A program made the translations under genes and the position numbers. The notes beneath the pieces are model-generated. The model was given only the letters and a program-made list of their open reading frames with translations, had not been told where the DNA came from and ran no database searches. DNA of 60,121 nucleotides from Phycisphaerae bacterium (GTDB lineage: Bacteria > Planctomycetota > Phycisphaerae > Sedimentisphaerales > Anaerohalosphaeraceae), in contig JACZKQ010000182.1 of assembly GCA_014859965.1 (NCBI GenBank), positions 1-60,121 of the forward strand, in the 5' to 3' direction. This document shows positions 37,443-42,866 of the stretch, piece after piece (the stretch's first letter is position 1; each line of letters starts with the position of its first letter).

Positions 37443-38210
37443 CTAAAGTGAACGATCGTCATCCGGGGGCCGCTCGCTCTGCGCTTCCGGGCCGCTCTCC
37501 GGGGATTCGTCCGCCTCTTCCATCTCATCCTCGACGATCTCTTCCGTGGTGACCGAAGTGGTTTCCAGGATGCTGTTGATCCGGCGTTTCAGCAAAGGCA
37601 GAAGCGGCACGTGCTCTATGCGGCGGAGGACCCGCCTGCCCGTGGCGTCATAGATCACCAGATCGCCCGCCAGGCAAACGATCAACTCGAAGAAATCCGG
37701 ATAGCTCGTGCGAATGCGTTTGGCGCCGCGGGCCAATGAATCGTCCATGCGCCCGAACTGATAATGCTCGAATTCGTTATGCGTTATCCGCCATTTGCAG
37801 TTGACCCGCGTATAGACCCACATGATGGCGTACAGCACCAGGAGGGGAATACTGACCACCAGGCCCAGATTGGCCGAATACTGCGGATCGAGCTTGCAGA
37901 AGAAATGGTAGATATCCGCAAAAAGAGTAACGCCTTTTTCGCCAAGCCAGAGAATCATCAGCCACACCGCCGCCAGCACAATCAGCCAGAAAATCGTATA
38001 GTTGCGGTTAATATCCAGCCCCATCGTGATGAGCACCAGCAGGAGCGTCATGCCCCATATCCACGCGAGCGCCTCATGGGATATCCACTGGTAATGGGCG
38101 GACGGCCACAGCAGAAATCCCATCATGATCAGCGGCCACGTGAAGATGAACTTCGGATAGGTGTAGAACGTCACTTCGTGCCGCACCTTTGGAGCCTTCT
38201 TTTTCGCCAT
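37443..38210 (-). CDS. Membrane protein with PH-like domain
   Basis: A 255-residue protein. Hydrophobic segments near residues 22-40, 50-70, 75-95 and 120-140 form about four membrane helices. The soluble part that follows (CKWRITHNEFEHYQFGRMDD, then LVIYDATGRRVLRRIEHVPL) resembles the bacterial PH-like module found after such helices. The C-terminus is a very acidic disordered tail. Unknown function. ATG 38210 has GGGAGG upstream. It starts 13 bases after the next upstream gene and belongs with it. Confidence 0.65.
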   Translation of the reverse strand: MAKKKAPKVRHEVTFYTYPKFIFTWPLIMMGFLLWPSAHYQWISHEALAWIWGMTLLLVLITMGLDINRNYTIFWLIVLAAVWLMILWLGEKGVTLFADIYHFFCKLDPQYSANLGLVVSIPLLVLYAIMWVYTRVNCKWRITHNEFEHYQFGRMDDSLARGAKRIRTSYPDFFELIVCLAGDLVIYDATGRRVLRRIEHVPLLPLLKRRINSILETTSVTTEEIVEDEMEEADESPESGPEAQSERPPDDDRSL

Positions 38211-38223
38211 TACGGAACCTCCC

Positions 38224-39768
38224 TCAGTCATACTGGGCCATTTCGTCGATCATTTCCACATAACACAAAAGTTGAAGCCGCGTCAATTCATAGTGCTGCC
38301 TCAGCATACAGATGCGCCGCGAATACCTCGCCCGCCGGGCAATGTGGCGCTCGGCGGTCTCCACCGCCCGCTGCGGGCAGACATTGACCAGCGTCCGCAG
38401 ATCGTGCTTATTCAGATAACATACGGTCCGCACAGCCCGTTTCGAAGCCGCGTCCCCCACAACATCGGGCAGGCAGTTCCTTATGAACTGGTCCGCGGCC
38501 CCCAGGCAGTGCCGGGCATCGGTTATCTTCTTCTCGACGAGCGCGCGCGGGAAAACACAACACGGAATTATCGATTCCAGGTGCGCGATATCGCTCAGCG
38601 GGTCATTATCCAGAAGGCCCGCCGCAAATTCAATATCATAATCCAGCCGCAGATGCATAGCGTTCACAAAATCGCGGCCAAACATCCGGTAGATGTGCAC
38701 GTGAGCCACGTCTCTACTCTCGGAGAAAATCGACAGGAACATTTTTCGACGGACCTCCTGCAATTCCGCCAGCGCCTGGGGCCCCCGCCGATTGAACGCC
38801 TGCATCACGAGCCGGTCGCTCCGGGCGTCCTTCCAAAGGAAGTCCTGCGCATCGAAATAGTCCGGCATGTCCTTGCCCACGTACCGCTCGTTCATCAGTC
38901 CGACCATTCCGCCCACACTGGTGCCGATCTTTTTCATCGTCAGGCTATGCCACAGCGGATCAGGGTGACCGGAGAGCGCCTCGCGGAAGCGAACGAGCAG
39001 TGGAATTCCCACCTCCCGCCGGATCCCCCGGATCGTCCGGTGACCGGCGAACTGCTTGCCGAGCACGTTGTCGTTGGCGGTAAAAAACGCCCCGTCATAC
39101 CAGTCCTCCAGAAGCGATAGATCAAAACCCGTGACCGCCTGTTCGAGCTTCTGCGGCAGGGACTCCCGCATCGCATACGCCGCCGAACAGACGAAGCCCT
39201 CCTTCGTTGTCTCCATGCACTCAGACAACGGCCGGAACTGCTCGACGTGATTCAGGAATTCGTCGACGCTATCGTTATCGATGCCGAAATGCCGCTTTAT
39301 CGCCGGCGGCCAAGCCTCCACCATTGCCCTCAATTGCCGGCGACTGCCGGAAATTTGCTCAGCTTCGCTGGACGTATGATCGCCGTAGATCGCCGCCTCA
39401 TATTTGAAAACCCTCTCCCACAGGACCTCAAGGTGGCGGGTCATCTGCGACTTCTTCTTGTCCTCCATCAGATTCATCGCGTTGGCGTCGGCTGCCAGCA
39501 GTTTTTCGGATGAAAAAAGATTCGAAATGCCGATCAGCATGTTTCCGACGCCGAACGTCGAAAGAGCAATACCACCCGGAAGCAGCGCCACATTAAGCTT
39601 GCTGAGATTCACATGGGAACCCAGCGCCATATCTGCAACGATCGCCCCGCCCGCCAAAACGGTCGCCAGCGAAGTGTACTTCATGCCCTTTCTCTTGAGC
39701 CACTTACCCGCCAGGAAGATGATTTGCCCCAGTCCGATGACTCGTTTGTAATCCTGTAGCATCGCCAT
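38224..39768 (-). CDS. Large protein of unknown function with N-terminal membrane segments
   Basis: A 514-residue protein I do not recognise. Residues 30-85 contain two hydrophobic stretches (SLATVLAGGAIVADMAL and VALLPGGIALSTFGVGNML), and the rest is soluble and mainly helical. Cysteines in ESIIPCCVFP and many aromatics suggest a compact fold. It overlaps no gene and is followed after 13 bases by the PH-like membrane protein, so the two may work together at the membrane. No clear ribosome site precedes ATG 39768; an ATG two codons later is also possible. Confidence 0.65.
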   Translation of the reverse strand: MAMLQDYKRVIGLGQIIFLAGKWLKRKGMKYTSLATVLAGGAIVADMALGSHVNLSKLNVALLPGGIALSTFGVGNMLIGISNLFSSEKLLAADANAMNLMEDKKKSQMTRHLEVLWERVFKYEAAIYGDHTSSEAEQISGSRRQLRAMVEAWPPAIKRHFGIDNDSVDEFLNHVEQFRPLSECMETTKEGFVCSAAYAMRESLPQKLEQAVTGFDLSLLEDWYDGAFFTANDNVLGKQFAGHRTIRGIRREVGIPLLVRFREALSGHPDPLWHSLTMKKIGTSVGGMVGLMNERYVGKDMPDYFDAQDFLWKDARSDRLVMQAFNRRGPQALAELQEVRRKMFLSIFSESRDVAHVHIYRMFGRDFVNAMHLRLDYDIEFAAGLLDNDPLSDIAHLESIIPCCVFPRALVEKKITDARHCLGAADQFIRNCLPDVVGDAASKRAVRTVCYLNKHDLRTLVNVCPQRAVETAERHIARRARYSRRICMLRQHYELTRLQLLCYVEMIDEMAQYD

Positions 39769-39956: not shown

Positions 39957-40712
39957 CTATTTGAGGTCATACGCGCGGTTGTCAGCCGACAGGAAGCCGG
40001 TCCCATCGGCGATCTGCTCAATGCCGGCCGGATCGGTTTCTGTGAACAATACGGCCGCCGATGAGGCACTGCCGTCTGCCCAACCCACGTTGGTCCTTCC
40101 AAGATGCCGATACGCCTGCGTCCCCGCATAACGCTCCGCAAAACCATCGCGCGCCGTGGCCCATGGCGACCGCATGAATTTGTTGGCTCCGGATGCAATC
40201 CCGCCGTCGCCGAATACCGCGCAGCCGGCAGGCATTCGGATATCGCTGTCGCGGGCCGACGGCACAAACGCCGCACCGCTTCCGAAGCCGCCGATATGGC
40301 TCGTGTTGTAGTTATATCCCGTGTACGGGTCGTTGAGCCAGTTATTTCCCCCCCGAAACGACGGGCATTGGTGAATTCTCTCGTTGGTCTCTCCCTGCCA
40401 CAAAACGCCCGGCGTCACGTATTCGGTCCCGGCATCCCAATCCTTTGTCGAGGTAAAGTCCCACGCGTAGGATACGCTCAGCGGATGACCCATCTTAGAC
40501 AGGTAAGCAATGGGAAAATCACCGTCGTTATCCTGCGTGTATATCCGGGCGGCAATCATGAACTGCCGCAGATTGCTTCTGCACGCCACTGTCCGGCTCT
40601 GCTCTTTGGCCCGCGCAAGCGCCGGCAGCAGTATGCCCGTCAGCATCCCGATGATCGCAATGACTGCGAGCAGTTCGATCAGGGCAAAGGCTTTTACAGT
40701 CTGCGGCCTCAT
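39957..40712 (-). CDS. Pseudopilin-like protein with H-X9-DG C-terminus
   Basis: A 251-residue type IV pilin-like protein. The N-terminus KAFALIELLAVIAIIGMLTG is a prepilin signal with the Glu-5 position preserved; Ala replaces the usual Gly before the cleaved bond. The body has the planctomycete pattern RSNLRQFMIAARIYTQDN, and HLGRTNVGWADG matches H-X9-DG. Such proteins are numerous in Planctomycetes and of uncertain role. ATG 40712 has GGAGGTG upstream and overlaps the previous stop in ATGA, so it is coupled to the dockerin-type gene and falls in the cobalamin riboswitch operon. Confidence 0.87.
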   Translation of the reverse strand: MRPQTVKAFALIELLAVIAIIGMLTGILLPALARAKEQSRTVACRSNLRQFMIAARIYTQDNDGDFPIAYLSKMGHPLSVSYAWDFTSTKDWDAGTEYVTPGVLWQGETNERIHQCPSFRGGNNWLNDPYTGYNYNTSHIGGFGSGAAFVPSARDSDIRMPAGCAVFGDGGIASGANKFMRSPWATARDGFAERYAGTQAYRHLGRTNVGWADGSASSAAVLFTETDPAGIEQIADGTGFLSADNRAYDLK

Positions 40713-41635
40713 GGGCACCTCCATGTGCACGCAAGCCAGTTCTCCGCCAGGACCGCCAGATCGGCCATATCCACTCGGCAGTCCTCATTTACGTCGCCGG
40801 GCGGGTAGGGATGCTTGTAGTCGCCGCAACTGCTCACATCGGCGACGGCATCTATCTCGGTCGTCCCCATCGAGGCGGGATCATCTTCGATCCGCACATA
40901 TTGTATCCAGTCGAGTCCGAGCACACCTATGTCGAATCCCGTTCCGCCGGCCGAGCCGTCATAGGCGTCGATCATCTGGGCGACGTTCATACCGTCGACC
41001 TTCAGCAGCGGATTGACCGGGCGCGTCGGGTCAAGTTCCTCGGCCCAGGCGTCCGCGACCGAGTCCCACCGGTACCCCGCCGTCGGGGCGAAAGTGTCGG
41101 CATAGGGCCCGCTCGAAAATGTGTGCCACACGACGCCATCCTGGCTCACTGATACAATTCCCGGCTCGCCGTAGGTGGCCTGCGTAACTACCGTATCTTC
41201 CGGGTTGCCGTTTCGCCAGGCGGGCCCGCTCTGGATCGCCTGCATGGCATTGCCGAAAACAATGAAGTCGACGCCGTGCGGGTTATGGCGGTCGTTGGCC
41301 ACGGCATGGCTGAACTTCAATGTAAGCGAGCCGCCGCGGCCGATACTGACAACCTCAAAACTGCGAAATGCCGGGCCGATAGGCACGATCGGCACCTGGG
41401 TGCTCAAAGGAACATACCATCCGTCACCGGTGGTATTCAGCGTCGGGCGGCCCAGTGCCGCCGTCGGATCGTTGAACAACGCGCCCGATATGAAATCCTG
41501 CGGCACGCCGCTGCCTTGGACATACTCAACCACCTCGACAGCGAAATCGTTCGGATCGTATTCGTACGCCGCCGCCCTGCAGGCCAGCAGCACACAACCG
41601 GCCGCCATGACACGTTTTATTCTGCCTGTCGCCAT
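40709..41635 (-). CDS. Secreted surface protein with dockerin-like C-terminus
   Basis: A 308-residue exported protein. Residues 1-23 form a signal peptide (ending CRAAA). The main body (AFRSFEVVSIGRGGSLTLKF, HGVDFIVFGNA, EPGIVSVSQDGVVWHTF, FDIGVLGLDWIQYVRIED) is a beta-sandwich-like domain seen in planctomycete cell-surface proteins. The last 35 residues (PPGDVNEDCRVDMADLAVLA, then ENWL) carry one dockerin/EF-hand-like calcium motif. ATG 41635 has AAGGGGA. It is the second gene of the riboswitch operon, 61 bases after the DUF4430-like gene. Confidence 0.83.
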   Translation of the reverse strand: MATGRIKRVMAAGCVLLACRAAAYEYDPNDFAVEVVEYVQGSGVPQDFISGALFNDPTAALGRPTLNTTGDGWYVPLSTQVPIVPIGPAFRSFEVVSIGRGGSLTLKFSHAVANDRHNPHGVDFIVFGNAMQAIQSGPAWRNGNPEDTVVTQATYGEPGIVSVSQDGVVWHTFSSGPYADTFAPTAGYRWDSVADAWAEELDPTRPVNPLLKVDGMNVAQMIDAYDGSAGGTGFDIGVLGLDWIQYVRIEDDPASMGTTEIDAVADVSSCGDYKHPYPPGDVNEDCRVDMADLAVLAENWLACTWRCP

Positions 41636-41696
41636 CACATCCCCTTCTGCCTTGCCGGTGCGGACTCACTGCGCACCGACATCTCCAAGGATTCCG

Positions 41697-42185
41697 TCAA
41701 TTTCCGAGCCGCCGCCGAAGGAAGAACGCGCCCGTTCCGATGAGCACCAGCGTCGCCGGTTCGGGAATGGCCGCGCTGCCGTAAACCCAGCCATCATATG
41801 CACCGTCGACAACAATCCGGTCCGAAGCCCCAAACATGGGACTTTCCCAAACCTGCCCGGCGTCCCTGGTCCAGTAGTGCCACCAGTCCTCGCCGCCGCC
41901 CCATCCTTCGTTGCTGTGGCCATCCCAGGCGATGCCGTCAACGTACTCGCCAAATCCATAGTCCTGCACAACGAGGGTCAGCGGCGTCTCTTCAGCAAGC
42001 CGCTGAATCAACGCCAAACCACTGATCGACTCCTCCGCAAATCTGACCATGAAATCGACACTGAAGCCATCCTTCCATTCAATGTATATCCCCGCCGAAT
42101 TGCTGCCTGATCCGACCTCGATGGGCATCGCCTGCACTGCGCAAACACCCGCCAAAACACCCATCACCGCACACCACTTCTTCAT
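41697..42185 (-). CDS. Transcobalamin-like (DUF4430) PEP-CTERM protein
   Basis: A 162-residue exported protein. A signal peptide (residues 1-19) is followed by about 115 residues resembling the C-terminal domain of transcobalamin/intrinsic factor, DUF4430: ISGLALIQRLAEETPLTLVV, then FGEYVDGIAWDG, WWHYWTRDAGQVWES and a final IVVDGAYDGWVYG. The C-terminus is a PEP-CTERM anchor: AIPEPATLVLIGTGAFFLRR. In the animal proteins this domain caps bound cobalamin. First gene after a cobalamin riboswitch, so a B12-binding surface role is a strong inference. AAGGA lies eight bases before ATG 42185. Confidence 0.75.
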   Translation of the reverse strand: MKKWCAVMGVLAGVCAVQAMPIEVGSGSNSAGIYIEWKDGFSVDFMVRFAEESISGLALIQRLAEETPLTLVVQDYGFGEYVDGIAWDGHSNEGWGGGEDWWHYWTRDAGQVWESPMFGASDRIVVDGAYDGWVYGSAAIPEPATLVLIGTGAFFLRRRLGN

Positions 42186-42442
42186 GCACATCCTTCACCA
42201 TCCTTCCGTTAAACAGTTGCAAACAATCACCCTTCAACCTCAATCCATAAGCGGCGGCCGATCGCCGCGCTGCGGCAGATCTGACCTTGACAGCCGCGAC
42301 GATCGACACTTTCGGCCGCTGCCCTGCACGGGCTCGAATGGATATGGAACAATAAGCCGTACCGAAAGCACAGCATTCAACATGTTACCCGCGAACGCGT
42401 TTGCCGCCCTGTCCCCTGCAGCACATCCCACGCCAGGACAAT

Positions 42443-42480
42443 AAAAAAACCGCCGCTCCCACGAAGGAAACGGCGGTTTA
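42443..42480 (-). terminator. Intrinsic terminator in the riboswitch leader
   Basis: On the minus strand, arms AAACCGCCG (42479-42471) and CGGCGGTTT (42455-42447) form a 9-bp stem followed by a T7 run (42449-42443). It is about 110 bases after the cobalamin aptamer and about 260 before the first gene. It probably serves as the expression platform: transcription would stop here when B12 is bound. Confidence 0.75.
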
Positions 42481-42589
42481 ATACCCTGACACATCCCGAG
42501 CACGGGTCGACGCCGGCAAGCAGCCGACGGACCTCACGCGCCCGAGGCGCATCCTGTTCCAGATCGCGAGAACATGACAATGCTGTTGC

Positions 42590-42800
42590 GACGACAGGCA
42601 GGTTTTCTGACTTGCACCCTACCTCAAGACCCCTTCCCATTCGCATGCGCGAACAGTGGGACGAAATGTCTTGAGGACTTGCGATCCGGCGACAGTTTCT
42701 TCGCCTTTCGCATCGGACGCTCACAGAGGCGCGACCGCCACGGATTTTCACCGTGTTCCCGTTTGACTATCCATAGGACCAAAAGTCCTCGGACCTGACG
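42590..42800 (-). ncRNA. Cobalamin riboswitch
   Basis: On the minus strand the leader holds the conserved core GGGAACACGGTGAAAATCCG near 42760-42740, then a GCGAAAGGCGAAGAAACTGT-like junction, then CCCACTGTTCGCGCATGCGA and GGGAAGGGG, and finally the B12 box AAGTCAGAAAACCTGCCTG at 42613-42595. CAGGTC near 42796 can pair with the 3' GACCTG-type end. Order and spacing match the known cobalamin aptamer. It is the only one in the window and controls the DUF4430-like, dockerin-like and pseudopilin genes. Confidence 0.93.
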
Positions 42801-42837
42801 TCTATATGCAATTTCAAAGAGCTAACCTAACGGCCGC

Positions 42838-42866
42838 TTTATACATCCGGCCGCGGACGGCAGCAA
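42838..42866 (-). promoter_or_regulatory. Predicted promoter of the riboswitch operon
   Basis: TTGCTG (42866-42861) and TATAAA (42843-42838) on the minus strand are 17 bases apart. Transcription would start near 42831, about 30 bases ahead of the aptamer. Confidence 0.55.

Follow-up and report, generated by a model that had tools for sequence, protein, structure and literature searches.

We analysed computationally a 60,121-nucleotide stretch of DNA (hereafter the window) from a Phycisphaerae bacterium (assembly GCA_014859965.1, contig JACZKQ010000182.1), on the minus strand of which a cobalamin riboswitch aptamer is followed, in order, by an intrinsic terminator and the genes for three exported proteins (proteins 1, 2 and 3). 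Our analysis suggests, with a probability that we put at about 80%, that this locus is a B12-repressed surface cassette that captures cobamides and feeds an ATP-binding cassette (ABC) importer. An original prediction, made from the DNA sequence, had proposed capture of B12 or a corrinoid outside the cell, and this reading survived both computational tests set for it beforehand, i.e. a structural match for protein 1 and a neighbourhood conserved in relatives and in other phyla. It is further strengthened by the identification of protein 2 as BtuH-type, a relationship that the original prediction had missed.

Predicted folds and families of the three exported proteins

Protein 1 (41697-42191, minus strand) is an open reading frame of 164 residues from the ATG at 42191, or 162 from that at 42185, and consists of a signal peptide, a core resembling the β domain of transcobalamin and intrinsic factor (residues 24-139, 41775-42122, minus strand) and a PEP-CTERM tail. 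An AlphaFold model built from 29 sequences (predicted local distance difference test, pLDDT, 85.9) was compared with the PDB, and the top 18 Foldseek matches comprised transcobalamin, haptocorrin, intrinsic factor and the Ruminococcus protein 3u7z. These gave Z scores of 12.3-14.2 over 94-105 residues at 1.8-2.4 Å, the closest being 2pmv (Z 14.2, 2.3 Å, 105 aligned residues), followed by 2bb6 and 4kki (both 13.8), 5np4 (13.3) and 3u7z (12.3); the best unrelated fold, a ubiquitin-like modifier, reached Z 7.4. The hairpin-helix-hairpin-hairpin ubiquitin-like topology of the model is the order published for the transcobalamin β domain (PMC11107200), and the isolated human transcobalamin β domain binds cobalamin and has been crystallised with cobalamin bound (PMC5599065). 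The predicted likeness to transcobalamin and DUF4430 consequently holds for the fold but not for the Pfam family: PF14478 (DUF4430) matched neither protein 1 nor its 28 homologues at E<=1, and returned only noise, with nothing above its cut-off, from the 59 genomes (host included) of our sample of relatives. Searching PDB sequences with a protein 1 profile was similarly of no use. As modelled, protein 1 is of the transcobalamin-type β fold, and by profile it lies outside Pfam DUF4430.

Pfam and NCBIfam assign no function to proteins 1 and 2, and in protein 1 Pfam shows only the PEP-CTERM motif (residues 141-161, 41709-41771, minus strand), which the original prediction had correctly recognised. 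This scores above cut-off both with PF07589 (22.9 bits, cut-off 20.7) and with TIGR02595 (18.8 bits), and the C-terminal PEP, hydrophobic stretch and basic end of a PEP-CTERM sorted protein are all present.

Protein 2 (40709-41635, minus strand, 308 residues) contains a BtuH-type domain at residues 24-270 (40826-41566, minus strand). For its structure model (pLDDT 90.5) the best fold match was 8blw_B, the H-domain of BtuG1 (residues 388-660; Z 13.3, 29% identity), alongside 7biz_A, BtuH2 315-592 (Z 13.1, 28% identity, 153 residues); the next structural matches, to PAPP-A, discoidin and CBM32-like domains, had Z scores of 9.6 or less. Amongst 177,635 PDB sequences a wide profile of 30 domains found BtuG1 391-522 as its only significant match (E 1.7e-4), whilst single-sequence phmmer and two narrower profiles, one of them DUF4465-linked, missed BtuH there. 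In BtuH2, Asn399 makes polar contact with the phosphate of B12 (PMC8941943). Asn129 of protein 2 (codon at 41249-41251, minus strand), which is invariant in 36 homologues, aligns with this residue when the BtuG1-BtuH2 alignment is used as a bridge and 100 is added to the BtuH2 chain index to give the published numbering; BtuH2 Gln333 appears opposite Asp in the homologues of protein 2. By fold, profile and phosphate-contacting Asn, protein 2 is a BtuH homologue, a family reported from gut Bacteroidetes and from three Firmicutes (PMC8941943). BtuL, another uncharacterised surface protein encoded in operons of this sort, was considered as a possible homologue of protein 2, a hypothesis that the BtuH match made unnecessary.

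The dockerin-like end previously proposed for protein 2, a single repeat at residues 279-301 (40733-40801, minus strand), falls below the single-sequence Pfam cut-off (PF00404, 15.3 versus 22.9 bits), but the family profile does match dockerins. Protein 2 has 23 matches in the host genome, most of them on this tail, and such wide recurrence suggests a general sorting or anchoring signal.

Protein 3 (39957-40712, minus strand, 251 residues) is a pseudopilin, as had been anticipated, and belongs to the type IV, DUF1559 kind, with PF07596 (24.1 bits) above the Pfam cut-off and a prepilin N-terminus recognised by TIGR02532 (17.2 bits, cut-off 16.3) in which Glu at +5 is invariant; PF07963, at 17 bits, remained under its cut-off of 21.2. 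The start codon overlaps the stop codon of protein 2 in an ATGA at 40712-40709. Alignment of the cassette pseudopilins across phyla revealed invariant Cys44 and Cys116 and a C-terminus of FRH/DG type, and because these residues are common to the cassette copies we regard protein 3 as belonging to a distinct pseudopilin subfamily and not as a random neighbour.

Riboswitch, expression platform and conserved neighbourhood

The aptamer (42580-42813, minus strand) matched RF00174 over the full length of the model (positions 1-189) in cmscan, with 67.2 bits and E 1.9e-14 against a gathering cut-off of 31.5 bits, and is the sole cobalamin riboswitch detected in the host genome. Inspection of the spacers by eye revealed, immediately 3' of the aptamer, a candidate hairpin TGTTC-TCGCGATCTG-GAACA (42555-42574, minus strand), and hairpins of TGTTC-TCGCGA-GGAACA type are visible directly after the aptamer in most relatives; we take this to be a putative kissing-loop L13-like element. 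The predicted intrinsic terminator (42440-42479, minus strand) is present as a hairpin at 42479-42447 followed by a T run. Since some three such sites would be expected in the region from shuffles alone, the single terminator of the window is weak evidence; a terminator at similar distance and of similar sequence, however, occurs in 34 of the 38 loci, the window counted among them, where shuffles would give 0.2, and lies 57-129 nucleotides downstream of the aptamer in nearly all relatives having one. Aptamer score and conserved terminator, the latter a candidate transcript-stopping platform, together point to membership of RF00174. We looked for an antiterminator complementary to the terminator arm, but the best candidates were scattered within and after the aptamer, at varying places across loci, and we therefore claim none.

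At least one cobalamin riboswitch was found in 54 of the 59 genomes. Within the order, 43 riboswitches were mapped in host and relatives (window included): 33 stand before a BtuH-like gene, 35 before at least one cassette gene and 29 before a pseudopilin gene; most of the others precede cob genes, an anaerobic ribonucleotide reductase with MetE, or a radical SAM gene. The reductase and MetE that follow the riboswitches at loci L106 and L109 are classical B12-independent isozymes, and at L110 and L118 two cobalamin riboswitches lie divergently back to back, one before cob genes and the other before a radical SAM/SPASM gene. The first slot of the cassette is occupied by the protein 1 family in 16 loci and by a DUF4465 protein in ten, with both present in none; a second DUF4465 label, in L092, probably reflects a shared PEP-CTERM tail, since Pfam detects no DUF4465 there. 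B12 binding has been demonstrated for eight divergent DUF4465 members (PMC13398666).

The original prediction had noted that no known B12 transporter accompanies the three genes, and this is true of the locus in the window but not of several relatives, in which BtuF, BtuD and BtuC follow downstream. BtuF occurs in the same gene run in six genomes (L092, L102, L103, L107, L108 and L132), five of which also have BtuD and BtuC in the run, the last gene in L103 being cut by the contig end. In the closest relative (L132) a riboswitch-like motif is followed, in order, by proteins 1, 2 and 3, BtuF, BtuD and BtuC.

The cassette extends well beyond this sample, a scan of 84,980 species genomes having yielded 80 loci that reach into Kiritimatiellae, Lentisphaerae, Verrucomicrobia, Armatimonadota, Desulfosarcina cetonica and other Deltaproteobacteria. 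It is partial in Desulfobacterota and often fused outside Planctomycetota. Infernal confirmed riboswitches in nine of 14 distant loci tested; a regular expression for the riboswitch, which found ten of 20 known loci, served for orientation only. No TonB receptor was found among ten large genes beside distant cassettes. Approximately 20 proteins from Planctomycetota, Verrucomicrobiota/Kiritimatiellae/Lentisphaerae and Desulfobacterota fuse protein 1-type, i.e. transcobalamin-β-like, and BtuH-like domains (e.g. L090:10812-12104, minus strand; L093:1731-3101, plus strand; L184:5242-7371; L180:5296-7173).

Several further observations were made around these loci. In L182:3149-3565 and L199:4139-4588 a cyclic di-guanosine monophosphate (c-di-GMP)-I riboswitch adjoins the cobalamin one ahead of genes of the BtuH-like and protein 1-like kinds, the order of the two being opposite in Desulfosarcina cetonica (L182) and another deltaproteobacterium (L199), and joint control by B12 and c-di-GMP is possible at both. 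The D. cetonica locus also holds several genes of each of these kinds, some of which look incomplete (L182:1641-6810). Downstream of the cassette in the window lies a gene for a 514-residue protein (38224-39768, minus strand) with no Pfam or NCBIfam match, which, together with the next gene (37443-38231), has a counterpart at the equivalent position in one relative (G019, locus L100).

Host physiology, proposed mechanism and alternatives

The host genome is a 5.28 Mb draft in 199 contigs, 99% complete, and contains nine B12-binding domains. CobS was not found in a single-family search, and completion of cobamides by the host therefore looks unlikely. One class III importer cassette, BtuF-BtuC-BtuD-like, is present on contig 73 and would carry B12, given its identity to importers in the riboswitch operons of relatives. 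The TonB plug domain PF07715, found in 39 of the 59 genomes, was not found in the host, in which a Bacteroides-type btu system, i.e. TonB-dependent BtuB with BtuG, was accordingly not recognised (BtuG was not searched for). Because it has nine B12-binding domains and one importer, with neither CobS nor a plug domain detected, the host looks, from its gene content, like a cobamide importer without a detectable BtuB.

In the mechanism that we propose, low intracellular cobalamin would allow the leader RNA to read through the terminator, as the riboswitch class and the conserved terminator suggest, and the three exported proteins would then be made. Proteins 1 and 2 would each bind a cobamide outside the cytoplasm, with the PEP-CTERM tail retaining protein 1 and the dockerin-like tail probably doing the same for protein 2; both proteins would concentrate the vitamin and pass it to the BtuF of the single BtuF-BtuC-BtuD-type importer. 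Protein 3 may connect the binding proteins to a pseudopilus, as carrier or scaffold, and is the only candidate within the cassette for passage of B12 across the outer membrane.

A number of results weigh against this scheme. The promoter originally placed ahead of the aptamer was not recovered, a scan detecting no sigma-70-like promoter on the minus strand upstream of it. At the level of sequence, protein 1 matches neither DUF4430 nor transcobalamin. In protein 2 the calcium loop of BtuH2, DINGNGLPDD, is shortened to SQDG, and the BtuH2 contacts His476, Tyr510, Trp511 and Trp577 could not be mapped. The probable surface location of both proteins is read from their tails alone. The host importer lies on another contig with no riboswitch detected near it, and its ligand is deduced from 28-40% identity alone; the genome-wide negatives come from single-family searches of a draft genome in 199 contigs.

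The capture scheme has also to be set against other explanations of the same genes. That ordinary, unrelated surface proteins should stand behind a riboswitch by chance is exceedingly improbable, and both the conservation and the folds already largely refute it. Planctomycetes commonly have PEP-CTERM, dockerin-like and pseudopilin proteins, which would favour such an accident, and the dockerin-like tail alone accounts for most of the host matches of protein 2, but the linkage of riboswitch to BtuH-like gene holds for most of the mapped riboswitches and recurs in other phyla. A ligand other than a complete cobamide, e.g. cobalt, free corrinoid precursors or a heme-like molecule, is brought to mind by the title of 3u7z from R. 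gnavus, a putative metal-binding protein amongst the structural matches of protein 1; we consider this highly improbable, however, as each fold has matches among proteins solved with cobalamin, and DUF4465, which can take the place of protein 1 in the first slot, is itself a cobalamin binder. The natural fusions of protein 1-type and BtuH domains would fit an arrangement in which proteins 1 and 2 close on cobalamin as a two-sided clamp instead of handing it on, yet fusion is equally compatible with hand-off, and the relatives of both proteins contact the nucleotide-loop side of cobalamin (PMC8941943, PMC5599065), such that the sites may overlap. It is for this latter reason that we favour hand-off, albeit with low confidence, and consider a clamp unlikely.

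A more far-reaching proposal concerns the outer membrane, where the pseudopilin might drive B12-loaded proteins through and so replace the TonB-dependent receptor BtuB. The cassette would then constitute a TonB-independent outer-membrane route for B12, in which two unrelated extracellular B12-binding folds and a dedicated pseudopilin deliver to BtuF in bacteria without BtuB. Consistent with this, plug domains were detected neither in the host nor in several other carriers of cassette genes (G035, G036, G039, G043 and G012); in L132, L103, L107 and L108 the capture proteins, pseudopilin, BtuF, BtuD and BtuC stand in order with no BtuB among them; and the pseudopilin, coupled through ATGA, forms a subfamily of its own marked by invariant residues. 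Against it, many of the genomes with plug domains bear the cassette, no pseudopilin was seen in the cassettes of Desulfosarcina, Deltaproteobacteria and Armatimonadota in the loci read, and the cassette contains neither a secretin nor an assembly ATPase. Pseudopilins of the DUF1559 kind are, moreover, thought to be abundant in planctomycetes. We judge both the replacement of BtuB by the pseudopilin and the TonB-independent route built upon it to be rather unlikely, though far from negligible; capture with hand-off to BtuF remains the reading that we prefer.

Comparison with known systems

Most of what has been established on surface capture of B12 comes from gut Bacteroides, in which the crossing is made by the TonB-dependent BtuB. 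The cassette considered here, found across environmental Planctomycetes-Verrucomicrobia-Chlamydiae (PVC) bacteria and partly in Desulfobacterota, brings together a BtuH relative and a stand-alone version of the fold used for B12 transport in the blood and stomach of humans, and so suggests a bacterial context for the transcobalamin β domain. It also offers a likely function for families annotated merely as PEP-CTERM, dockerin or DUF1559 proteins, and makes testable the question of how a diderm without a detectable TonB receptor obtains a 1.3 kDa vitamin. The original prediction knew of no described system with this set of genes, and our search of the open-access literature (subscription papers lay outside it) likewise found no description of the cassette: the individual parts have known relatives, whilst no account was found of their combination, of its control by riboswitches across PVC bacteria or of the pseudopilin.

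The closest relatives of protein 2 are BtuH2 and the BtuG1 H-domain of Bacteroides thetaiotaomicron (7BIZ, 8BLW; PMC8941943, PMC10404256), with which it shares the fold at 28-29% identity over approximately 155 residues, a profile-level match, the phosphate-contacting Asn and cobalamin riboswitch control. Unlike these, protein 2 has no PKD or propeller domains, ends in a dockerin-like repeat and has a shortened calcium loop, and its locus contains neither BtuB nor BtuG. Protein 1 shares its fold, and the sequence of strands and helix within it, with the β domain of transcobalamin, haptocorrin and intrinsic factor (5NP4, 2BB6, 2PMV; Z 12.8-14.2; PMC5599065), but differs in lacking the α domain, in its identity of only 9-15%, in its PEP-CTERM tail and in being bacterial and encoded behind a riboswitch. 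The signal-bearing DUF4465 proteins that take the first slot behind the riboswitch in relatives correspond to the BtuJ/DUF4465 B12 binders (PMC12751083, PMC13398666), whose fold is a different one and of which the host genome has none. In overall organisation the nearest parallel is Bacteroides btu locus 2 (BtuJ2-BtuH2-BtuL-BtuG2-BtuB2-BtuFCD), in which a riboswitch likewise controls a series of surface B12 binders that feed BtuFCD; where that locus employs lipoproteins and a TonB-dependent BtuB, however, the cassette in the window has PEP-CTERM and dockerin-like proteins and a pseudopilin.

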